IMG/VR virus record: IMGVR_UViG_3300010330_000018
Coordinates: 1-29,197 of that record
Reading direction: 5' to 3' (one strand)
DNA: 29,197 nt
Source: a virus
How positions within the stretch are numbered: the stretch's first letter is position 1; each line of letters begins with the position of its first letter. The translations under genes were made by a program, and so were the position numbers. Below the pieces are notes generated by a model. The model saw nothing but the letters and a program-made list of their open reading frames with translations, ran no database searches and was not told where the DNA came from. Shown in pieces: positions 5,773-14,765 of the stretch.

Positions 5773-5810
5773 CTTTATTAATTTGCTTTAACAAATATTA
5801 TTGATTGTAT
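5773..5810 (+). promoter_or_regulatory. TATA box for a near-leaderless portal mRNA
   Basis: CTTTATTAAT at 5773-5782 is centred about 34 bases before the portal ATG (5811). The bases in front of the ATG (ATTATTGATTGTAT) have no GGTG or GGAG ribosome site. This combination fits a very short leader or leaderless archaeal transcript. Confidence 0.5.
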
Positions 5811-7112
5811 ATGACTTTGCTCGATTCTTTTAGGCGTGTCTTTAACCTTTCTTCCAGCAATAAGACTGTCCAAACGCTTGGAATGAAAAGCGTGGGCGAG
5901 ACAACTTTAACATTTAAGAGCGGCGAGGAGCAGCTAAAGCGGGTAAATCCAATTGACTTGGAAACCATTTATATTAGGGAAGGCATGGTCTACAACTGGA
6001 TAAATAAGTTTGTTGAGTCTTTTCTTGCCTGCGATTTTCGTGTTAACACATCAAATGAGCGCGAAAGGAAAATCATGGAAGAGTTTCTGCGTGCTTCCAA
6101 TTTTCGCAACCTTTTGAAAACAACTGTCCAGCATATGCTTGTGTATGGCAATGCTTTCTGGGAAAAAATTACAAACGGCGGAACCAAGCTTCTTGCAGTT
6201 GATTGGATAGATCCCAAGACAATGGATGTTAAGAGAACTCCGATGGGAAAAGTAATTTATGCGCAAGATGGAAAACCTGAAGCTTATGTTCAATATGTCA
6301 AATGGAATGTGGATACATCTAAAATCCCGAAAGAGAGGCAAGTAAATCAAACTGCTATGTTTCCTGAGACGCAGAGCGGGAAAGGCATCCTTCTTAAGAG
6401 GGAAGAAGTTGTTCAGTTTCCGTATAATACAATCGGAGATTCTTGGTGGGGTGTCGGACTTATTGAACCCATCTATAATATTATCAGGGTTAAGCAAAAT
6501 GCGGAAGCCGGATATGCAGAAGCGATTCAGCGTGTAGCGTATCCACGCATCTGGGTTAAAGTTGGAGACGATCAGCATCCTCCGACACCAGAGCAGATTG
6601 ATGATGTGTGGAACCAGCTCAAGGGTTTGGAAACGAAGCATCAGTTTGTTTCTCCATATTTTTATGAGCCAGTTATTCTTGAGTCAAAGCGCGTGGAAAA
6701 GCTGGCTGACAACCTAAAATATTTCTCTGATCAAATTGTTGCCGGGCTTGGAGGTCCTAAACCATTTATAACTGGTTTGGGAACAGACACCAATAAGGCA
6801 ACCTTAAATGACCAGAAAATTCTTTTTGAGAGGCAGCTCAAGGCCTTACAAGAGCAAATTAGCCAAATAATTGAGCGCGAAGTTTTCGCAGTTTTAGCAA
6901 AGCAATATAGATTTCGTTCTGTCCCGACTCTTGTTTGGGAAGAAATATCTACAGAAAGTTTGGATAGCAAAGCAGACAGGCTGGTAAAATATGTGAATGC
7001 TGGTTTACTGAATCCAGACAAAGATATCAGAAATATAATAAGAACTTCTGAGAGATTACCTGAAGAGAGCGGCAACAGTCAGGAGGTTGGGGCAGATGGT
7101 GAATCTAAATAA
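5811..7112 (+). CDS. Portal protein
   Basis: Ring protein at the capsid vertex through which DNA passes and to which neck proteins bind. At 433 aa it has normal length. The core is recognisable: QHMLVYGNAFWEKI (about 105-118), VDWIDPKTMDVKRTPMGKV (about 127-146), VVQFPYNTIGDSWWGVGLIEPIY (about 202-224), then the clip/stem part with GGPKPFITGL and the long helix LKALQEQISQIIEREVFAVL. The C-terminal tail is acidic (GADGESK) and overlaps the next gene. The start at ATG 5811 is preferred over a TTG two codons upstream. It follows terminase, as in most tailed viruses. Confidence 0.9.
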   Translation: MTLLDSFRRVFNLSSSNKTVQTLGMKSVGETTLTFKSGEEQLKRVNPIDLETIYIREGMVYNWINKFVESFLACDFRVNTSNERERKIMEEFLRASNFRNLLKTTVQHMLVYGNAFWEKITNGGTKLLAVDWIDPKTMDVKRTPMGKVIYAQDGKPEAYVQYVKWNVDTSKIPKERQVNQTAMFPETQSGKGILLKREEVVQFPYNTIGDSWWGVGLIEPIYNIIRVKQNAEAGYAEAIQRVAYPRIWVKVGDDQHPPTPEQIDDVWNQLKGLETKHQFVSPYFYEPVILESKRVEKLADNLKYFSDQIVAGLGGPKPFITGLGTDTNKATLNDQKILFERQLKALQEQISQIIEREVFAVLAKQYRFRSVPTLVWEEISTESLDSKADRLVKYVNAGLLNPDKDIRNIIRTSERLPEESGNSQEVGADGESK

Positions 7113-7542
7113 GCTCAAAAAATTGACGCGTGACCTTGATAGCATTACGCAGGACTTTGCACGCGAAATGGAATATGAAGCGCTTTTTCTCGAATCAAAA
7201 GGCAAAACTCCCATATTTAATTTTATGAAACAAATTTTTGACAATGTTAAGTCATGTGTTTTTATTGTCAGCAAAGATTGTAAAATTTTGTATGCCAATC
7301 CTATGAGCATTAAACTGGCTAACAAATTTGGTGGAAAAGCAAAGATTGGTAATTTTTGTATAAGATTTTGGAGTGGAAAGACAAAATGTAAAATGAAAAA
7401 TTGTCCATTAAAAAGGGCTATGAATTCTAAAAGAATGTTAATTGATAAAATAAATTATAGGGGAGATAATTTTGAGATAGTGTCAATTCCATTATATGAT
7501 AATGGAACTACATCTGTATTGGTTATTGCTAACAAGTTGTAG
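7096..7542 (+). CDS. PAS-domain protein with cysteine cluster, 148 aa
   Basis: After a helical N-terminus (about residues 1-38) comes a single PAS fold: FMKQIFDNVKSCVFIVSKDC, KILYANPMSIKLANKF, then GNFCIRFWSGKTKCKMKNCPLKRAM and two final strands NFEIVSIPLYDNG and SVLVIANKL. The insertion with three cysteines before a Pro resembles the Cys-containing loop seen in many archaeal and bacterial sensory PAS domains. There is no kinase or other output domain. AGGAGG at 7081-7086 sets the ATG at 7096, which overlaps the portal 3' end by 17 bases, so the two are translationally linked. A free PAS domain in a head operon is unusual. A redox or metal sensor or a protein-interaction module is possible. 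Confidence 0.75.
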   Translation: MVNLNKLKKLTRDLDSITQDFAREMEYEALFLESKGKTPIFNFMKQIFDNVKSCVFIVSKDCKILYANPMSIKLANKFGGKAKIGNFCIRFWSGKTKCKMKNCPLKRAMNSKRMLIDKINYRGDNFEIVSIPLYDNGTTSVLVIANKL

Positions 7543-7553
7543 AGGTTGGTAGG

Positions 7554-7784
7554 ATGTCTAAGACAGATGAATGGAGACTGAAACAAATGGAATGGCGTGG
7601 CTATACTGTAAAGGCTTTGGAAGATATGAACAATGAATTGAAAGAAATTAAACATGAGTTAAAAGACACGAACAAAAAAATTGACAGATTAAACAATGCG
7701 CTTGGGCGAGTACAGATAAAAGTTGCTGGAATAGGAGCTACTGTGGCCATTCTTGTTTCAATCATACTGCATATTATGTGGTGA
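7554..7784 (+). CDS. Small coiled-coil protein with C-terminal membrane span (XhlA-like)
   Basis: The 76-aa protein has a heptad-like coiled coil (LEDMNNELKEIKHELKDTNK, then KKIDRLNNALGRVQ) followed by one C-terminal membrane span (GIGATVAILVSIILHIM, about 59-75). This architecture matches XhlA/holin-accessory proteins of bacterial phages, so a role at the host membrane (lysis or exit) is possible. Archaeal lysis systems are poorly known, so that role is inference. The gene starts 11 bases after the PAS gene (GGTTGGTAGG upstream) and ends 5 bases before the MBL-fusion start. Confidence 0.65.
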   Translation: MSKTDEWRLKQMEWRGYTVKALEDMNNELKEIKHELKDTNKKIDRLNNALGRVQIKVAGIGATVAILVSIILHIMW

Positions 7785-7789
7785 GAAAA

Positions 7790-9664
7790 ATGAAATTATT
7801 GATGCTGGGAACAGGTCCAACAAATCCTGTTGTGGGGAAGGGAAAGGATAATCGTAGGAATAGCTCGATGCTTCTGACCACAAGGAACGGGACAACTGTG
7901 CTTTTTGACTGCACGCCACAGTTTTATGAGCAAATGCAGACATTTGCGCCGGACACCAATAAAATCGATTATATTGTTTTCAGTCATGGTCATTCTGATG
8001 CGATTGGAGGCATACCTCAGTTAAAATACTGGTTAAAGGAAAAAAAACAAGAGAAAGCTCCGATAGCATATATGCAAAAAGAAACAGAATTTCGCATAAA
8101 AGAGCGGTTTAAGGACTTGTCTCATATGGATATAAGAAATTTCAAGCCGTATGAAATATTGAATCTCGAACACCTTAAGATTGTACCATTTAAGGTTATT
8201 CACGCCGAAGCATTCCCTACTGGAAACAAGTTTCCTACAGTGGGCTTCAGAATCGATAACAAGATAGTTTATGCAGAAGATATGGAATCTGTTCCAGATA
8301 AATCAATACCCTATTTTGAGAAGTCTAAAATTATTATAATAGATGCTGCAATGTGGGATGACAAAAAAATAAGGGGGCATATGAATGTAAAGCAAGCTCT
8401 TGAATTCTGCAAGAAATTCAAAACACGTGAAATTGTTTTGACGCAAGCAGGGCACACATATCCATCATATAATAAAGCGCAGAAAGAGATTGAAAAGATT
8501 TGGTCTGATATTGGCGGCGATAAGCGAACAAGCGTTACCCTTGCTTATGATGGAATGAGTCTTATAATAGCAGACAATTTTGAAAAAGTAAATGACTATC
8601 TGATTCAGATAAAGGAAGGGATTTACCTTGTTAAGCCGCACGCCGAGATGATATGGAAAGGAAACAAGAAGTATATAGTGAAAGCAAAAAAATATATGAA
8701 GATGATTGACAAGCTTCTCTACTTTTGCGACGATGAATATGCTTATGGTATATTGCGTCTCAAAAAGCCTTTTCTCATAAATCTTGATGAATTCAATAAT
8801 TTCAAGCCGCAACACCTTATAAGCAATGAAGAAAGGAAAAAATGGTGGGGCGGGAAGCGCTTTCTGTTTATGTATCCATTTGACATAATCGAGAAGTTCA
8901 AAAAGCCGAAAAAAATAAAGGTTCTGCCCGGGACCCAAACATTCATTAAGGATGTCCAGTTTATGAGTGAGCTTTCTGAAATAGAAATGATAGAAGATGT
9001 TAATCAGTATGATCCATCAAAAGTCAATAGCAAAGCGTTGACCAACGATTGGCGAATAGTCTTAGCTTGGTATGCGACAAAAAAGCGTGGAGGCAACCTG
9101 AAGCATTCTTTCGATACAATCATAGGGCTTGCCAAAAAGATTTACGATGAGATTGTGAAAAGAGTTGAACGGGGCGACATGAAGCATATATTCAAGCCAG
9201 AAAAAATGACTCCATACGCGAAAGAGCTGTACAATAGAGTTAAAAATATGAAAGTTAGTGAAAATAAGGAATACACCGCCTCAATTGACGAATTAACACC
9301 TCTTGTCAGTCAGTTTAAGGAATTTAAAATCATAAAAGATTTTATATCGTTAGTTGGTTCGAATGTAAAACGAGAGGAGGGGCACATACCCAATGACATA
9401 GATTTGCATATTCGTATGCGCACCCCTCCCGATTATATTAGAAGAGCAATCGAAGTTAGGTTGTTAAAAATGCTACCAAATGATATAGCAAATAAAATAC
9501 ATTTTATCTGGGGAGATCCTGAAGGTTCGCATGACTCGTTTGTTCCGTTATATGACCTTGCCTTAGTTAAGTCTGACAGAAAAGTTGTTGAAATGGGAGA
9601 ATTGAAAATCGGGCAAGCTATTGTTATCAATGGTAAAAGAGGTATAATAAAGGAGGTTAAATGA
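7790..9664 (+). CDS. Fusion protein: MBL fold, ASCH/PUA-like, nucleotidyltransferase-like, KOW-like
   Basis: Start at ATG 7790 after GTGGTGAG, giving 624 aa. Residues 1-260 form a metallo-beta-lactamase fold of the PhnP/RNase Z-like type, with FDCTPQFYEQM, FSHGHSDAIGG (His66, His68, Asp70, then Ala), IIIIDA (Asp185), RGHM (His197) and QAGHT (His222). Residues about 275-395 look ASCH/PUA-like (GIYLVKPHAEMIWKGNKKY, YAYGILRLKKP, MYPFDIIEKF, LPGTQTFI). A helical linker (about 415-485) has WYATKKRGGN. Residues about 515-600 hold a GS...DxD pattern (LVGSN, then NDIDLHI and VPLYDLALV), as in polymerase-beta-like nucleotidyltransferases. The end (GQAIVINGKRGIIKEVK) is KOW-like. The stop overlaps the ligase gene start (ATGA). 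Role: probable nucleic-acid end processing; substrate unknown. Confidence 0.75.
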   Translation: MKLLMLGTGPTNPVVGKGKDNRRNSSMLLTTRNGTTVLFDCTPQFYEQMQTFAPDTNKIDYIVFSHGHSDAIGGIPQLKYWLKEKKQEKAPIAYMQKETEFRIKERFKDLSHMDIRNFKPYEILNLEHLKIVPFKVIHAEAFPTGNKFPTVGFRIDNKIVYAEDMESVPDKSIPYFEKSKIIIIDAAMWDDKKIRGHMNVKQALEFCKKFKTREIVLTQAGHTYPSYNKAQKEIEKIWSDIGGDKRTSVTLAYDGMSLIIADNFEKVNDYLIQIKEGIYLVKPHAEMIWKGNKKYIVKAKKYMKMIDKLLYFCDDEYAYGILRLKKPFLINLDEFNNFKPQHLISNEERKKWWGGKRFLFMYPFDIIEKFKKPKKIKVLPGTQTFIKDVQFMSELSEIEMIEDVNQYDPSKVNSKALTNDWRIVLAWYATKKRGGNLKHSFDTIIGLAKKIYDEIVKRVERGDMKHIFKPEKMTPYAKELYNRVKNMKVSENKEYTASIDELTPLVSQFKEFKIIKDFISLVGSNVKREEGHIPNDIDLHIRMRTPPDYIRRAIEVRLLKMLPNDIANKIHFIWGDPEGSHDSFVPLYDLALVKSDRKVVEMGELKIGQAIVINGKRGIIKEVK

Positions 9665-12411
9665 TGTTTCTCAATGAATATGAAAAGAAAAAAAGAGAAA
9701 TATTAGCGCAACTTGATAGTTTAGAAAGTCAGCTTCAGAAAAAAGAGCTGAAGTTGGCAACGCAAGAAACTCTTTGGATAACAGCTATCGAAGATAGGCT
9801 TAAGGCAATAGAAAATAAAATTAAAAGATTAAATGAAATTGAGAAGTATGCTATTGAACCTACTTATGTCATCGAGTTCGAAGATGGCACCACTAAAGAG
9901 CTGACGAAAAAAGAAATCGAAGTGCTTGCCGATACGACATCGCATGATGTTGGTAGCATCCAGCCAATTATTTGGGCTGTGGGAAAAAAAGTGAAAGCCA
10001 AAGGCAAGGTTGGCGTCATAAAAAAGAAAATAAAACAAAAAGGATATATAATACAGTTTGAAGATGGAGAGACAGAAGAAGTTGACGAAAAGGAGTTGGA
10101 AGAGTCTAATATAATCCCTCTAAAGCCTTTTTTACCTTCAGAAAGCAAAGTGTATAATGGTATCGAGAGCATAATAAAAGAGCTAAATCCTAACGAGGCT
10201 AATGTTTATTTTGTTGAGGAAAGACCGAAAGGCATTCGCTTGCTTTTGCATAAGGCTGGAAAAAACATTGAACTGTTTTTATCAAACAAAGAAAATGTGA
10301 CAGATAAATATCCGGATATTGTGAAGCAGGCGCCAAACCTTACTGCAGAAGACATAATCCTTGATGGTGTTCTGGTCGGCAACAAATACAAGGTGTTTGA
10401 CATATTGTATTATAAGAATCAGTCTTTAGATGACATCAGGCTTTATGAGCGCAAAAAAGTTTTGAACTTACTCGAATTTACAGAGAACATAGTTAAGTCT
10501 CCATTTGTTGTTGTCAATTCTTCGGATCAGATGATTAAGGCAGTTAAGCTATTCAGGGCTTTGCCTACCAGTGATGGTGTTCTTATTAGGGGCTATAATT
10601 CAACATATAAGTTAGGTTTTAATCAGTTTTGGTCTGTTTTTAGTCTCGAAGCCCAGCCAAAATTGTTTAAACCATATTTGCCTATGAAGCCACATGGTTC
10701 CGCTTATTATGATTTGAAAGAATGCATAAATGATTTACAGAACGGAAAAAAATATTCATTTGAGTTCAAGTATAATGGATTTCACGCAGTAGCTCATAAG
10801 AAAGGGGAAGAAGTGAAAATATTTTCCGAGCAGAAAAAAGACATTTCTTCGGCATTTCCAACATTAATGGAAAATATCAAAAAGCTTGCGCCTAATCATG
10901 ATTTTATAGTTGATGGGGAAATTGTTCCATACTCTCCTGAAGGAAAAGCTCTTGGTAGAGACCCTTTGATGAAATTTATCGGCGCGGTGAAATCTGGGAA
11001 AAAGCTTGATGATTCATTAATTAAAATGCATGTTTTTGATATTACATATTTTGACAAGCCAATTATAGAAAAACCGTTACATGAAAGGCAGCTTGTTCTG
11101 GATAAGCTCAAGTTCAATGACAGAGTTGAAAGGGTTTTGTATAAAATCGGTACAAAAGAGAATGCAGAAAAATTGATTAACTGGGCTACACGGCAAGATG
11201 GGAGCGAAGGTTGCGTGATAAAGGATTTGGATTCGCCTTATGTATTTGGCGAAAAATCAAAAGCATGGATAAAGTTCAGACATCTGGTTGACATTCATGC
11301 TGTCGTGCTAAAGAAAGTCGAAAAGGAAAGGAATTTATTCAATTACCTTGTTGGAATATATGTTTCTCAGGAGGATGCGAAAAAGCTTCATCCAGATTAC
11401 ATTCAAGATTTTAACGGAAAAAAAGTCTTGGTTCTTGGTCATACATTTAACACAAGTGAAGAAGTTTCTCCTGGAACAATTATAGATGTTGCCTTAGAAG
11501 ATGTGTGGCGCCATACTTATCCTGAAATAAATAAAGTCAGATATTCGATACACAAGCCAAGATTTAGGCAAACAAGACCAGACTTGAAGAAAACATCATC
11601 TATTCAAGACTTGGAAGATATTGTCACCAGCATTGGTGAAGAAGTAATTGTGGAAAAGGAAGAGCTGAAAGAAAAATCTTGGGAAGATGTTCTCAAAAAG
11701 GGCGAAGGCGAAGGTGGAGATTTTGAAACAAGATACGAAGCGGCAGTTAAGTTTTGGGATGCAAACTGGTATAAAAGCTTTCCAAAATCAGGCAAGGGAG
11801 TATTTATTTACCATCATCATTATAGAGGGCTGACTGAAGACGAATCTAAGATGAGTGAAGAGGAGCTTCTTGATACGGATAACTCTGTTCATGGCGATCT
11901 CAGGTGCCAGAAAGACGACAAATCACTATGGGGGTTTACAATTTTTACTGGTAGCACAAAAGATTTGAAAAAAGCAGGTGGCTGTAGGTTGTGTGAGCTT
12001 GAAGGAAACGAAAAGATGCAAGGCACATTCAAGTTGTTAGAGCCGCTTGCGTGGGCAAAAGTTGGATTAAAAAAGCCTTATGTTTCGGAGCCAGAAGGCG
12101 TAGGCGCAACCAAAAATTACTATGCGAAATTTTTCGCAGTTGATCACGGCACCTATGATATGGGAGTTTGGAGAAAGCATAGTTTTGAAATATTTTTACA
12201 TGGGAAAAAACTAAAGGGGCGTTATATAATTCAGTTCGCTCCTGTTGGTGGGCGTCGCGTCTGGCTTATTTCTCATCCGGAAGACCAGACTCCTTATGCA
12301 GATTCGCACAAGCTTGAAGATGTTATCAAAGAATTGAAAGCGAAAAAGCAAGAATGGCTCGTCTGGGCAAAGCCCGGTGTTAAGCCTAAACTAATTCATA
12401 TTGGTGATTAA
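9661..12411 (+). CDS. Multidomain ATP-dependent ligase: pseudo-ligase, ligase and phosphoesterase-like domain
   Basis: A 916-aa protein, AAAGGAGG upstream, coupled to the previous gene by ATGA. Residues 1-60 are coiled coil; about 65-150 hold SH3/KOW-like strands (VIEFEDGTTKEL, IIQFEDGETEEV). Residues about 180-325 follow ligase motif order but are degenerate: EERPKG in place of ExKxDG, then LDGVL, VFDILYY, SDGVLIR, YKLG. Residues about 365-545 form the intact adenylation domain: EFKYNG (Lys370), VDGEI (418-421), VFDITYF, SEGCVIKD (Glu516), KAWIKFRH. An OB-like part follows (about 545-635). Residues about 690-875 resemble the LigD 3'-phosphoesterase: YHHHYRG, NSVHGDLR, LWGFTIF, LKGRYIIQF, WLISHPED. 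Expected reaction: ATP-dependent sealing of nicks or ends in DNA (RNA not excluded). Domain calls are by motif only. Confidence 0.8.
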   Translation: MMFLNEYEKKKREILAQLDSLESQLQKKELKLATQETLWITAIEDRLKAIENKIKRLNEIEKYAIEPTYVIEFEDGTTKELTKKEIEVLADTTSHDVGSIQPIIWAVGKKVKAKGKVGVIKKKIKQKGYIIQFEDGETEEVDEKELEESNIIPLKPFLPSESKVYNGIESIIKELNPNEANVYFVEERPKGIRLLLHKAGKNIELFLSNKENVTDKYPDIVKQAPNLTAEDIILDGVLVGNKYKVFDILYYKNQSLDDIRLYERKKVLNLLEFTENIVKSPFVVVNSSDQMIKAVKLFRALPTSDGVLIRGYNSTYKLGFNQFWSVFSLEAQPKLFKPYLPMKPHGSAYYDLKECINDLQNGKKYSFEFKYNGFHAVAHKKGEEVKIFSEQKKDISSAFPTLMENIKKLAPNHDFIVDGEIVPYSPEGKALGRDPLMKFIGAVKSGKKLDDSLIKMHVFDITYFDKPIIEKPLHERQLVLDKLKFNDRVERVLYKIGTKENAEKLINWATRQDGSEGCVIKDLDSPYVFGEKSKAWIKFRHLVDIHAVVLKKVEKERNLFNYLVGIYVSQEDAKKLHPDYIQDFNGKKVLVLGHTFNTSEEVSPGTIIDVALEDVWRHTYPEINKVRYSIHKPRFRQTRPDLKKTSSIQDLEDIVTSIGEEVIVEKEELKEKSWEDVLKKGEGEGGDFETRYEAAVKFWDANWYKSFPKSGKGVFIYHHHYRGLTEDESKMSEEELLDTDNSVHGDLRCQKDDKSLWGFTIFTGSTKDLKKAGGCRLCELEGNEKMQGTFKLLEPLAWAKVGLKKPYVSEPEGVGATKNYYAKFFAVDHGTYDMGVWRKHSFEIFLHGKKLKGRYIIQFAPVGGRRVWLISHPEDQTPYADSHKLEDVIKELKAKKQEWLVWAKPGVKPKLIHIGD

Positions 12412-12412
12412 T

Positions 12413-12559
12413 TTGGCATATCCGCGCATCTCTATTGAAAAAATTCAGATGATAGTAGAATTGACCAAAAAAGGCGAGAGCAGAAAACAGATAGCGCGCA
12501 TGGTGAAATGCAGTACATCTACTGTATATTCTTACCAGAAAGAATATGGTCTGTTATAG
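12413..12559 (+). CDS. Small helix-turn-helix protein, 48 aa
   Basis: Starts at TTG 12413, right after the ligase stop, with GGTGAT at 12403-12408 as ribosome site; the same layout is seen before the TTG start at 21685. The protein reads (M)AYPRISIEKIQMIVELTK, then SRKQIARMVKCSTSTVYSYQ and KEYGLL: a homeodomain-like or resolvase-type helix-turn-helix with the recognition helix CSTSTVYSYQ. It is just the DNA-binding unit with no effector domain. It may regulate the capsid promoter immediately downstream (12583) or help recognise DNA for packaging. Confidence 0.7.
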   Translation: MAYPRISIEKIQMIVELTKKGESRKQIARMVKCSTSTVYSYQKEYGLL

Positions 12560-12582
12560 TTAACACAACAAATACTTTCTTA

Positions 12583-12618
12583 AAAGTTTATAAATTCGAG
12601 TTTGGTTTAAAACTATCT
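12583..12618 (+). promoter_or_regulatory. TATA box for a leaderless protease/capsid mRNA
   Basis: AAAGTTTATAAATT at 12583-12596 is centred about 29 bases before the ATG at 12619, and no GGTG or GGAG lies between. This is the expected geometry for an archaeal leaderless transcript. It would drive the protease, scaffold and major capsid genes, and so allow late, strong expression. Confidence 0.55.
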
Positions 12619-13758
12619 ATGAAAGAAGACAATTTACAAGAAATTTTTGAGCATCCTGTAGTACAAGAGTTAGTTAATAAAGCATATAAAGACTTGGATT
12701 CAGAGGTTAAGTTGCCATTCATTCTGAAAGACAAAATATTGATGTCTCCTGGCGTGTGGAACAACTTTTACTACAGCCCTAAGACAATTGAAACCATTTT
12801 TAAGAAAACAAACTGGGATGATGTAAAAGTAAGGGCACTTTTTTTAGACCACATTGATGACAGGGCTGCCGAATGGATTGGAGAAGTTATGAACCCAAGA
12901 CTCGAAAATGGTAATATAGTTGGAGACTTGGCAATATTAGACAAGCCGACTGCAATAAAACTGGCGTATGGCGCCAAGTTTGGAATTTCTCCAAAGGTAG
13001 TTGGAGAAGCAGACTATAACAAAAGGATGTATGATGGATACTTCGAAAATTTCTCTGTCGTGATCAATCCCGCTGTTAAGACAACATTTCTTAACAGCGA
13101 AATAAAAATCAAAAATAAAGGAGGAGAGAATATGCCTAAGACAAAGGAAGAAATTTTAGAAGAAGAGTCTTCTAAAGTATCTGAAGAAACACCGAAAAAA
13201 GAAGAAACACCAAAAGAAGAGCCAAAGACAGAAACCAAAGTAACTGAAAATGTCGAAGAACTTGCAGAAAAAATAGCAGAAATACTTGCAAAAAAGAAAT
13301 ACCCATACCCAAAAGCAGATGAAGAGCTGAAGAAAAAGAAATATCCATATCCAGAGAAAATGGAAGAAGAAATCAAAAAGCTCAAAGAAGAAATAGAAGA
13401 ACTCAAAAAGAAGAAATATCCATATCCAGAGAAAATGAGTGAAACTGAGCAAGAGCTTTCAGCTTACACAGATTTTATCAAAGAATATCTCAAGAAGCAT
13501 CCAGGAGCGACAATAAAGGAAGCTGCAAAAGCTTGGGGAAAGGAGCACAACGAGCTTGAGGAATCAAAGTCAAGCGTAACCGTAGAAGACTTGCAGACTC
13601 AGATAGGTGAAATAGTAACACAGAAAATGTCAGAATTTGGCGTAAAGCCAATAAGAATTGCTCAGAAGTTCATAGATCCAAATAGCGAAGCTAATATAAA
13701 TGCTTCAGAACTTGATTTGGCAATGTTCAATATGATTAAGGAGGGGATTGGAGTATGA
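12619..13758 (+). CDS. Prohead protease fused to scaffold
   Basis: Start at ATG 12619 (379 aa) is chosen from the TATA geometry; an upstream frame extension to 12508 overlaps the HTH gene and lacks support. Residues about 30-160 form a serine protease of the herpesvirus/HK97 assemblin type: candidate catalytic His78 in LFLDHIDD and Ser124 in KFGISPKVV, with the final strand FENFSVVINPA. Residues 172-379 form a scaffold: Glu/Lys-rich coil (EETPKKEETPKEEPK), three KYPYP units, helix KKLKEEIEELKKKK, and a C-terminal domain with AYTDFIKEYLKKHPGATIKE and IRIAQKFIDPN. The protease would trim the scaffold and itself during maturation. The stop overlaps the capsid start (ATGA). Confidence 0.85.
   Translation: MKEDNLQEIFEHPVVQELVNKAYKDLDSEVKLPFILKDKILMSPGVWNNFYYSPKTIETIFKKTNWDDVKVRALFLDHIDDRAAEWIGEVMNPRLENGNIVGDLAILDKPTAIKLAYGAKFGISPKVVGEADYNKRMYDGYFENFSVVINPAVKTTFLNSEIKIKNKGGENMPKTKEEILEEESSKVSEETPKKEETPKEEPKTETKVTENVEELAEKIAEILAKKKYPYPKADEELKKKKYPYPEKMEEEIKKLKEEIEELKKKKYPYPEKMSETEQELSAYTDFIKEYLKKHPGATIKEAAKAWGKEHNELEESKSSVTVEDLQTQIGEIVTQKMSEFGVKPIRIAQKFIDPNSEANINASELDLAMFNMIKEGIGV
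13132..13758 (+). CDS. Nested scaffold protein from an in-frame internal start
   Basis: Within the protease gene, AAAGGAGGAGAG at 13117-13128 precedes an in-frame ATG at 13132 with ideal spacing, exactly at the boundary between protease and scaffold (Met172). This would yield a free 208-aa scaffold sharing its C-terminus with the fusion, in the same way as Nu3 within lambda C, or the herpesvirus UL26.5 within UL26. The ribosome site is stronger than that of the full-length gene, which has none. Internal initiation is inferred from the sequence. Confidence 0.6.
   Translation: MPKTKEEILEEESSKVSEETPKKEETPKEEPKTETKVTENVEELAEKIAEILAKKKYPYPKADEELKKKKYPYPEKMEEEIKKLKEEIEELKKKKYPYPEKMSETEQELSAYTDFIKEYLKKHPGATIKEAAKAWGKEHNELEESKSSVTVEDLQTQIGEIVTQKMSEFGVKPIRIAQKFIDPNSEANINASELDLAMFNMIKEGIGV
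13297..13428 (+). repeat. Three KYPYP peptide repeats in the scaffold
   Basis: The pentapeptide KYPYP occurs at residues 227-231, 241-245 and 266-270 of the protease-scaffold protein (DNA 13297-13311, 13339-13353, 13414-13428). Each is preceded by Lys residues and the last two continue as EKM. The flanks are Lys/Glu-rich coiled coil. Confidence 0.8.
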
Positions 13759-14765
13759 GAACTATACAAGAGCTTGCTGATACAACCACTTCTCACAACA
13801 CAGACCTTCTCGCAAAGAGATGGCTAAACACCATAGTAGATTCAGCAAAGAAAAAGATGTTCTTTTTGGACATCGTTAGCCAGTATGATATGCCTCCAGG
13901 CACCCAGAGCATAGTAATACCTTACAGAAAAGGTTACTTTAGCACTCTTGGGACTTCAGTAACAGACACAACCACAGAAGGTAATTCAGTTACATTCACC
14001 ACAATGAACAACCTTGAAGGTCTTACTTTAACACCTTCACCACATGCATATGGTGTAGCAATATCCAACAACGCTGTGAGAACTACAGCAGTTAACCTTA
14101 TACAGGCTGCCAGAGAAGAGCTTACAGACTATTGGGCAGATGTAGTTGACAAGGCAATTGCCGCTGCAATAAATGGAGCTCCAGTTGCAACATCATCGGC
14201 AAAAGGAGCTTCTGAATTGTTTGGTGGAGATGCTTCGTCAACATCTACATTGGAATCTGGAGATATTCTAACACCATCACTTATAGTGAAGGCCAAAAGC
14301 AGACTACAAGGTACAACGATGTATTACTGGGACAGCGGTTCAGAATCAAAATCATCACAGAGTAAGGCACCTTGGTTCTCGGAGCCCGACAGCCCATTTG
14401 TAATGTACATAGGCCCAGAACAGGAATATGTACTTTTGACTGATAGTCAGTTTACGAATGCGGCAGAATATGGTGGCAACGAGATTGTGCTTAACGGCGA
14501 AATAGGAAAATATCAGGGTGTTAAAATAATAACTTCAGTAAATACCACATCAGCAACAAACTGGGGTGGTGGCAGTTTAGCTGGTCACAACTGTTACATG
14601 GTCAAGGCTCGCGTATCTGCAGCTTTAGCATGGGGACAGAGACCAAGATTGAGGATATTTGAGTATCCAAGTGACCTTGAAACCAGAATAATACTTGAAC
14701 AAGCATACGCAACAGACTCTTTGCACAACGACTCGATTTGTCATGTGAAAGTCGCTGACGAGTAA
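13755..14765 (+). CDS. Major capsid protein, HK97 fold (N4-gp56-like)
   Basis: The main shell protein, 336 aa. The N-terminal arm has AKRWLNTIVDSAKKKMFFLD; the core includes TPSPHAYGVAISNNAVR, the long spine helix NLIQAAREELTDYWADVVDK, and the P-domain/A-domain strands YIGPEQEYVLLTDSQF and GKYQGVKIITS. The end SAALAWGQRPRLRIFEYPSD matches the common C-terminal pattern of N4-gp56/P22-like coats. AAGGAGGGG about 10 bases upstream is one of the strongest ribosome sites in the window, which suits an abundant product. The start overlaps the protease stop. It is followed by three hairpins, likely ends of the capsid transcript. Confidence 0.85.
   Translation: MRTIQELADTTTSHNTDLLAKRWLNTIVDSAKKKMFFLDIVSQYDMPPGTQSIVIPYRKGYFSTLGTSVTDTTTEGNSVTFTTMNNLEGLTLTPSPHAYGVAISNNAVRTTAVNLIQAAREELTDYWADVVDKAIAAAINGAPVATSSAKGASELFGGDASSTSTLESGDILTPSLIVKAKSRLQGTTMYYWDSGSESKSSQSKAPWFSEPDSPFVMYIGPEQEYVLLTDSQFTNAAEYGGNEIVLNGEIGKYQGVKIITSVNTTSATNWGGGSLAGHNCYMVKARVSAALAWGQRPRLRIFEYPSDLETRIILEQAYATDSLHNDSICHVKVADE

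Follow-up and report, generated by a model that had tools for sequence, protein, structure and literature searches.

A predicted dead ligase domain retained beside an intact one in a viral head-module polyprotein

Why would a virus keep two ligase-type adenylation domains in one protein when the first has apparently lost its active site? The question is raised by IMG/VR virus record IMGVR_UViG_3300010330_000018, analysed here over its 29,197 bases (the window), in which a gene at 9661..12411 (+) encodes a protein of 916 amino acids that Pfam matches to PF01068 in three stretches (145 bits in total). A dead and a live adenylation domain in tandem within one DNA ligase is a rare arrangement, and we found no paper on an inactive or tandem DNA ligase domain in the open-licence literature, which is weak evidence of absence. 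We refer to the first domain as copy 1, to the second as copy 2 and to related loci by their L numbers. The explanation that we favour, and consider fairly probable, is that copy 1 is an old ligase domain displaced by an incoming copy 2 with its OB domain, and retained beside them as a non-catalytic module.

Copy 1 and its missing catalytic residues

Copy 1 (residues ~153-328) is a ligase-type adenylation (nucleotidyltransferase) domain. Searched by itself, the interval 10150-10700 matches PF01068 with 54.0 bits (E 2.3e-14; cut-off 26.2), and the genome-wide Pfam search recovered copy 1 in two PF01068 pieces that jointly reach 54.1 bits, again above the cut-off. With copy 1 alone as the query, phmmer against PDB sequences returned archaeal DNA ligases (4eq5, E 4.7e-7; 3gde, E 1.5e-6). 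An AlphaFold2 model of copy 1 built on 48 aligned rows (pLDDT 88.3, pTM 0.84) finds the Thermococcus gammatolerans DNA ligase as its best Foldseek match (E 4.3e-13, query-length TM-score 0.82), and VIA-align superposes it on human LIG1 (Z 22.9, root-mean-square deviation (rmsd) 2.4, 177 residues aligned) and on a Pyrococcus ligase (Z 22.6, rmsd 1.9, 174 residues). In a full-length model, for which single-ligase rows were aligned on copy 2, the strands and helices of copy 1 follow a similar order up to residue ~311, and a helix replaces a strand at the last element. Chance ligase-like motifs were ruled out by the Pfam score together with the fold match. A first-pass annotation made from the sequence had read residues 180-325 as such a domain; the Pfam score and the models, which show a ligase fold and thus the opposite of what had been named as refuting it (a model without a nucleotidyltransferase fold), bear this out, and the true extent is slightly wider.

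The catalytic positions of copy 1 were compared in a motif alignment of 48 rows, 45 of them outside copy 1, several rows being near copies of one another. R188, V237, D305, R310 and V326 of copy 1 stand opposite K370, E420, E516, K521 and K538 of copy 2. At the motif I position, within EERPKG (from residue 186), lysine is found in all 45 non-copy-1 rows, and the same holds for the glutamate of motif IV (45/45) and the lysine five residues further on (45/45). The motif V lysine position is filled by K in 32 of these rows and by R in 13, and the motif III glutamate position, in LDGVLV (from residue 234), by E in 31, S in 13 and D in one. The arginine in motif I and the LDGVL reading of motif III had been noticed at the first pass, and the alignment confirms both R188 and V237. 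Retained in copy 1 are the glycine and arginine of motif I, the aspartate of motif III, the Phe-Asp of motif IIIa and the tyrosine after motif IV. Copy 1 is without the residues for lysyl-AMP formation and is predicted to be catalytically dead.

Homologues, in which it had been proposed to look for the same change, are also altered at these sites. The copy 1 of L006/L011, a contig that ends inside the domain, has asparagine at both motif I and motif III, and that of L004, where the contig starts inside the domain, has glycine at motif IV, lysine five residues on and leucine at motif V, so that its C-terminal end appears dead too. Since a second, independent contig also has copy 1, with other replacements at the corresponding positions, the domain is not an assembly accident, and an assembly or frameshift artefact was ruled out. 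K190 is unlikely to serve as a substitute nucleophile, as L006/L011 has no lysine in motif I. From motif III to motif IIIa the window is in addition ~29 residues shorter than L007: a count by eye gives a spacing of 5 residues, against 9 in L006 and 34 in L007. The sequence on either side of the gap is strongly conserved, with LTAEDIILDG identical in the window, L006 and L007, and KYxVFDILYYK mostly retained in all three.

Copy 2 has motifs I, III, IIIa, IV and V intact (K370, E420, F459, E516, K521 and K538), as had been anticipated for a second copy with Lys370. Residues 333-655 of the full-length model align with LIG1 (6p0a) over 298 residues (rmsd 4.5), so the OB domain lies behind the adenylation domain, and fold matches of this pair to the two-domain ligase core reach Z 24-26. 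Copy 2 and the OB domain form a complete predicted ATP-dependent ligase core. Compared with ATP-dependent DNA ligases of this type (LIG1 and archaeal Lig, PF01068 plus OB), whose fold copy 1 shares, the window protein adds a dead adenylation domain without an OB domain in front.

Two ligase lineages in one gene

Two homologous domains side by side could stem from a tandem duplication of recent date after which copy 1 decayed, as was implied when the first-pass annotation called the domain duplicated. We placed both copies in a tree of 26 ligase domains (the L004 copy 1 fragment, L052 and L055, being short or distant, were left out). Window copy 1 joins the copy 1 of L006/L011 (support 100/99) and then the ligase of L007, which has only this one and has it intact (100/99); window copy 2 groups with L004 copy 2 (100/99), near L016-L021. 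In an approximately unbiased (AU) test on 24 rows, L009 and L031 being omitted as well, forcing copies 1 and 2 into one clade costs 73 log-likelihood units (p-AU 5.6e-5), and a joint clade that includes L007 gives p-AU 1.1e-3; the groups were defined after the first tree had been seen, so these p-values are somewhat generous. The AU test and the grouping of copy 1 with the L007 ligase led us to reject tandem duplication, which we regard as extremely improbable. The trees instead place copy 1 and copy 2 in separate ligase lineages, copy 2 being of the L016/L019 type.

Domain-wise blastp agrees with the tree. The partner gene, which lies upstream of the ligase gene and overlaps it by 4 bases (7778..9664 and 9661..12411), is 69% identical to L007, 43% to L019 and 29% to L016, and copy 1 follows the same order (50, 28 and 26%). 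For copy 2 the figures are 46, 56 and 57%, and for the OB domain 39, 66 and 45%. A tree of the partner likewise places the window with L006 and then with L007, and the left breakpoint is backed by both blastp and the ligase tree. Because tree and blastp agree, we propose that recombination between two viruses put a ligase and OB cassette behind the old adenylation domain of an L007-type polyprotein, which would thereby have lost its own OB domain. Copy 2 would then have taken over ligation, and the old domain would have lost its catalytic residues before the lineages of the window and L006 parted. A loss before that split is supported, though not proven, by the shared gap between motifs III and IIIa and by the loss of the residues of both motif I and motif III in the two lineages.

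Alternatively, an ancestral polyprotein could have had two active ligases, of which L007 and the remaining relatives would each have kept a single one. The joining cannot be dated from the tree by itself, and the two lineages occupy corresponding gene positions in separate viruses. However, this history requires many parallel losses, and L007 has its own OB and phosphoesterase-like domains directly behind its ligase. The distribution of the family also speaks against it. A scan with an alignment running from copy 2 to the C-terminus as the query matched 42 loci in viruses and 13 in species genomes, and among the contigs found by the viral and genome scans only the window, L004 and L006/L011 bear a copy 1. 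Besides the window, L004 and L011 there are 46 distinct open reading frames (ORFs) with one clear ligase stretch each and none with a second, although many are partial, so that a second copy is possible there; an extra 3.3-bit ligase stretch in one of them was taken as noise. We consider an ancestor with two ligases unlikely, and prefer the insertion of copy 2 behind an older copy 1.

Constraint on copy 1 and its possible role

If copy 1 was displaced, is it still of use? Since dS was saturated (infinite) in eight of 12 comparisons, the proportions of synonymous and nonsynonymous differences (pS and pN) were used instead of dN/dS. Between the window and L006 the N-terminal part of copy 1 (100 codons) is 58% identical, with pS 0.72 and pN 0.28, compared with a pN of 0.32 in the neighbouring N-terminal region and 0.16 in the partner gene. 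Between the window and L004 the C-terminal part (61 codons) is 25% identical (pN 0.43), and copy 2 is 78% identical (pN 0.14). A neutral simulation at one substitution per site gave a mean identity of 17% and a maximum of 27% in 500 runs. Copy 1 evolves at roughly double the rate of the neighbouring enzymes, and the rate is higher again at its C-terminal end, yet it does not drift freely: it is under purifying selection and is kept far better than unconstrained DNA. That this constraint postdates the catalytic loss would depend on the loss being common to the window and L006, which is supported but not proven.

The main rival, which we think rather unlikely but the most credible of the alternatives, is that copy 1 is a fossil without a task, persisting only by staying in frame and folding harmlessly for the sake of copy 2. 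Openness would be forced upon such a relic, since copy 2 would be lost with any frameshift or stop in it; the low identity of the C-terminal part and the different replacement of lost residues in each lineage (R or N, D or G) are also as expected. Against it stand the 58% identity of the N-terminal part at saturated synonymous sites, far above the neutral simulation, and the kept segments LTAEDIILDG and, for the most part, KYxVFDILYYK. Moreover, removing the domain completely without a frameshift ought to be easy, and none of the three contigs shows such a deletion.

A domain that no longer reacts with ATP might still bind ATP, AMP or adenylated DNA non-covalently and regulate copy 2 as a sensor. 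The retained residues of motifs I, III and IIIa and the tyrosine after motif IV would suit this role, the motif IIIa phenylalanine being the residue that stacks on adenine in ligases. However, the motif III glutamate and the acid and lysines of motifs IV and V, which in ligases hold ribose, metal and phosphates, are lost from window copy 1, and we judge a sensor distinctly improbable.

Several observations weigh against a displaced domain that is retained for a function. The C-terminal half of copy 1 drifts fast, and the constraint on the remainder could serve folding only. The open frame proves nothing by itself and was not used as proof of function, because a stop would also cut off copy 2. 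Net charge is not a decisive sign of DNA binding (-2 for window copy 1 and +8 for L007 in the same columns, where other ligases range from -5 to +11). Of the 48 rows that guided the model of copy 1, 45 come from ligase domains in which motif I is intact, which favours a ligase fold. The OB tree is weakly supported, and the tree of the phosphoesterase-like domain leaves the right-hand breakpoint unfixed. Finally, copy 1 is represented by three contigs only, of which L004 is without the N-terminal part and L011 ends before copy 2, so that a second complete tandem is not among them and the copy 2 of L006 is assumed.

On balance we still favour retention of the displaced domain as a folded, non-catalytic module that would position copy 2 within the polyprotein. 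Copy 1 probably stayed as a structural or DNA-end-holding domain; it could hold a DNA end, or offer a packing surface to copy 2, to the Tudor-like part or to the partner product. Among the ligands that the first-pass annotation had suggested for it (DNA ends, ATP or the partner protein), the findings single out none.

The ligase polyprotein in the head module

The ligase gene and its partner sit between the portal gene and the protease/scaffold-like and major capsid genes (Table 1). The name protease for the gene behind the ligase is a putative one taken from position and sequence, the Pfam search having given no match. A small gene between portal and partner (window 7087-7542) has a weak PAS match (20.1 bits, cut-off 27) and is kept in L006; on the tail side, 27538-28233 matches Glycosyltransferase family 2 (26.1 bits). 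Within the 916-residue protein Pfam recognises no helical DNA-binding domain, and fold searches with the full-length model, being filled by ligases, are uninformative on the phosphoesterase-like and Tudor-like parts. A Tudor-like stretch also precedes the L007 ligase.

Table 1. Features of the ligase gene and its neighbours in the window
Feature	Position	Strand	Evidence
Portal protein	5805..7112	+	PHROG matches
Partner gene: MBL-fold, ASCH-like and pol-beta-type nucleotidyltransferase	7778..9664	+	MBL by Pfam; ASCH and nucleotidyltransferase via alignment to Pfam-matching relatives
Ligase gene: coiled coil, Tudor-like, copy 1 (predicted dead ligase domain), copy 2 (intact ligase domain), OB, LigD-PE-like	9661..12411	+	ORF, Pfam, model, fold matches
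Long N-terminal helix, coiled-coil-like, residues 2-62	9664..9846	+	present in L006/L011, absent from L007
Tudor-like stretch, residues ~110-148	9988..10104	+	Pfam Tudor matches under threshold; blastp 42-51% to L007
Copy 1, nucleotidyltransferase domain predicted to be catalytically dead, residues 153-328	10117..10644	+	Pfam, phmmer, alignment, model, fold search
Arg188 codon at the motif I lysine position (EERPKG)	10222..10224	+	alignment
Motif III Val237 for Glu, and junction lacking ~29 residues before motif IIIa	10369..10386	+	alignment, comparison with L007
Copy 1 motifs IV-V: Asp305, Arg310, Val326 for Glu, Lys, Lys	10573..10638	+	alignment
Copy 2, adenylation domain of an ATP-dependent ligase with its motifs intact, residues 334-541, Lys370	10660..11283	+	Pfam, alignment, fold matches
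OB domain, residues 542-660	11284..11640	+	blastp, fold matches
LigD 3'-phosphoesterase-like domain, residues 690-916; H720, H744, D746, R748	11728..12408	+	PF13298 under cut-off, hhalign, conserved columns
Putative gene of the head protease/scaffold type and the major capsid gene, immediately 3' of the ligase gene	12508..14765	+	major capsid by PHROG match, synteny

The C-terminal domain is, by its sequence, a putative relative of the LigD 3'-phosphoesterase (PE). It scores 17.4 bits against PF13298, under the cut-off of 31.1, and three of seven family members match at E <= 1. In hhalign comparisons with LigD PE the window's PE-like set reaches E 2.3e-4 (probability 45%) and a second viral PE-like set E 2.1e-5 (probability 77%), compared with E 0.28 for an OB control. 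H720, H744, D746 and R748 are nearly invariant in a family alignment (A9); we read them as the likely counterparts of the His-His-Asp metal site of LigD PE and an accompanying arginine, the metal-site and other important residues being those described in passages of a LigD review (PMC8656161). At the positions of P. aeruginosa His84 and Tyr88 the second viral set has other residues, and the alignment of the window set stops short of them. Against PDB sequences the domain finds weak matches (3p43, E 0.23; 5dmp, E 0.52), and that of L020 finds only the unrelated 6bii (E 0.69). As in LigD and the archaeal end-joining ligase and phosphoesterase, a ligase and a PE-like part thus share one chain; no LigD polymerase domain is seen, and MBL and pol-beta-type nucleotidyltransferase parts occur instead.

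Relatives vary the domains around the ligase, with MBL, ASCH, D12 adenine methylase, uracil-DNA glycosylase, XkdF-type protease and (in L016) nucleotidyltransferase recognised by Pfam. Another family alignment (A8) omits near-identical rows and that of ANMV-1. A D12-class adenine methyltransferase domain (PF02086) lies inside the polyprotein at L019:6475-10680 and L024:4617-8774. One chain at L025:230-3865 joins a nucleotidyltransferase-like part, ligase, uracil-DNA glycosylase (PF03167), PE-like domain and XkdF-type protease (PF14550). Behind the ligase gene of L021 lies a second polyprotein (L021:3429-5966), by eye composed of MBL, two PE-like domains and an XkdF-like protease end, with no ligase domain. 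In L007 partner and ligase are one fused chain of 1606 amino acids (P0006, ORF 8004-12824), and its PE-like domain holds an intein-like insertion at residues ~1139-1483 (LAGLIDADG_3, 30.2 bits). The order TerL, portal, polyprotein, protease-like gene and major capsid gene is found in L007, L016, L017, L018 (with a split gene), L019, L022 and L023, and in L024 it holds up to and including the protease-like gene. L006 departs from it, with three long genes in front of the ligase gene, which is placed ~8 kb further on.

The L007 record also contains a Ku-like gene (L009:2339-3082 (-), PF02735, 81.5 bits) near a separate LigC-like ligase of 283 amino acids (L009:1255-2106 (-)), and the two may form a viral non-homologous end-joining (NHEJ) pair besides the polyprotein. 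Ku was found only in that record, a possible difference from NHEJ systems: none of the eight other records searched (six viral, mostly fragments) has it, a weak first-look candidate in G005 did not score, and none of the ten window ORFs scanned matches. These searches do not support a general link of the polyprotein to Ku and NHEJ.

A comparable protein is the annotated ATP-dependent DNA ligase of ANMV-1 (KP703175, AJP62006), likewise a nucleotidyltransferase-ligase-OB-PE-like polyprotein directly behind the portal gene; unlike the window protein, to which it is 24% identical, it has a single ligase domain and no dead copy, and its chain includes neither an MBL nor an ASCH part. ANMV-1 is a virus of uncultured archaea, and the word ligase is absent from the main text of its description (PMC4372165). 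Relatives such as ANMV-1 suggest an archaeal host for the window virus. The polyvalent proteins of phages (Iyer 2017), as presented in the main text of PMC5512222, are likewise large multi-enzyme proteins encoded with head genes, and an inactive RNase domain is retained in MuF of phage Mu; that main text states a paucity of such proteins in archaea and contains neither 'dna ligase' nor 'lactamase'. The likeness here is drawn from genes alone, from location beside portal and capsid genes and the XkdF-type protease fusion in L025. Inactive nucleotidyltransferase domains are also retained in human TUTs and OASL, as described in parts of PMC6240794 and PMC4351405; those are pol-beta-type, whereas copy 1 belongs to the ligase/capping superfamily.

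Because ligase, PE-like, MBL-fold and pol-beta-type nucleotidyltransferase parts occur together, the whole set may be a kit, produced together with the head proteins, that heals and seals ends or nicks of the viral DNA at about the time of packaging or entry. A bolder version, possible but rather unlikely in our view, is a head-module DNA-end repair polyprotein (MBL phosphodiesterase-like, nucleotidyltransferase, ligase and phosphoesterase-like) that would travel with the DNA, and in one branch of which the displaced domain would serve as a built-in pseudo-ligase that holds a DNA end or controls copy 2.

In summary, a polyprotein family (MBL, ASCH, nucleotidyltransferase, ligase, OB and PE-like, in some members with Dam methylase, uracil glycosylase or head protease) is held between portal and capsid genes, a position that points to healing and sealing of DNA ends as part of packaging or entry in these viruses. 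Different viruses supply the active ligase in its single-domain state, the dead domain and the domain that replaced it, and so the change from an enzyme domain to a retained pseudo-domain may be tested step by step. If the bolder version is true, copy 1 would be a pseudoenzyme born by domain displacement and not by duplication, with L007 as the state before and the window, L006 and L004 as the states after.

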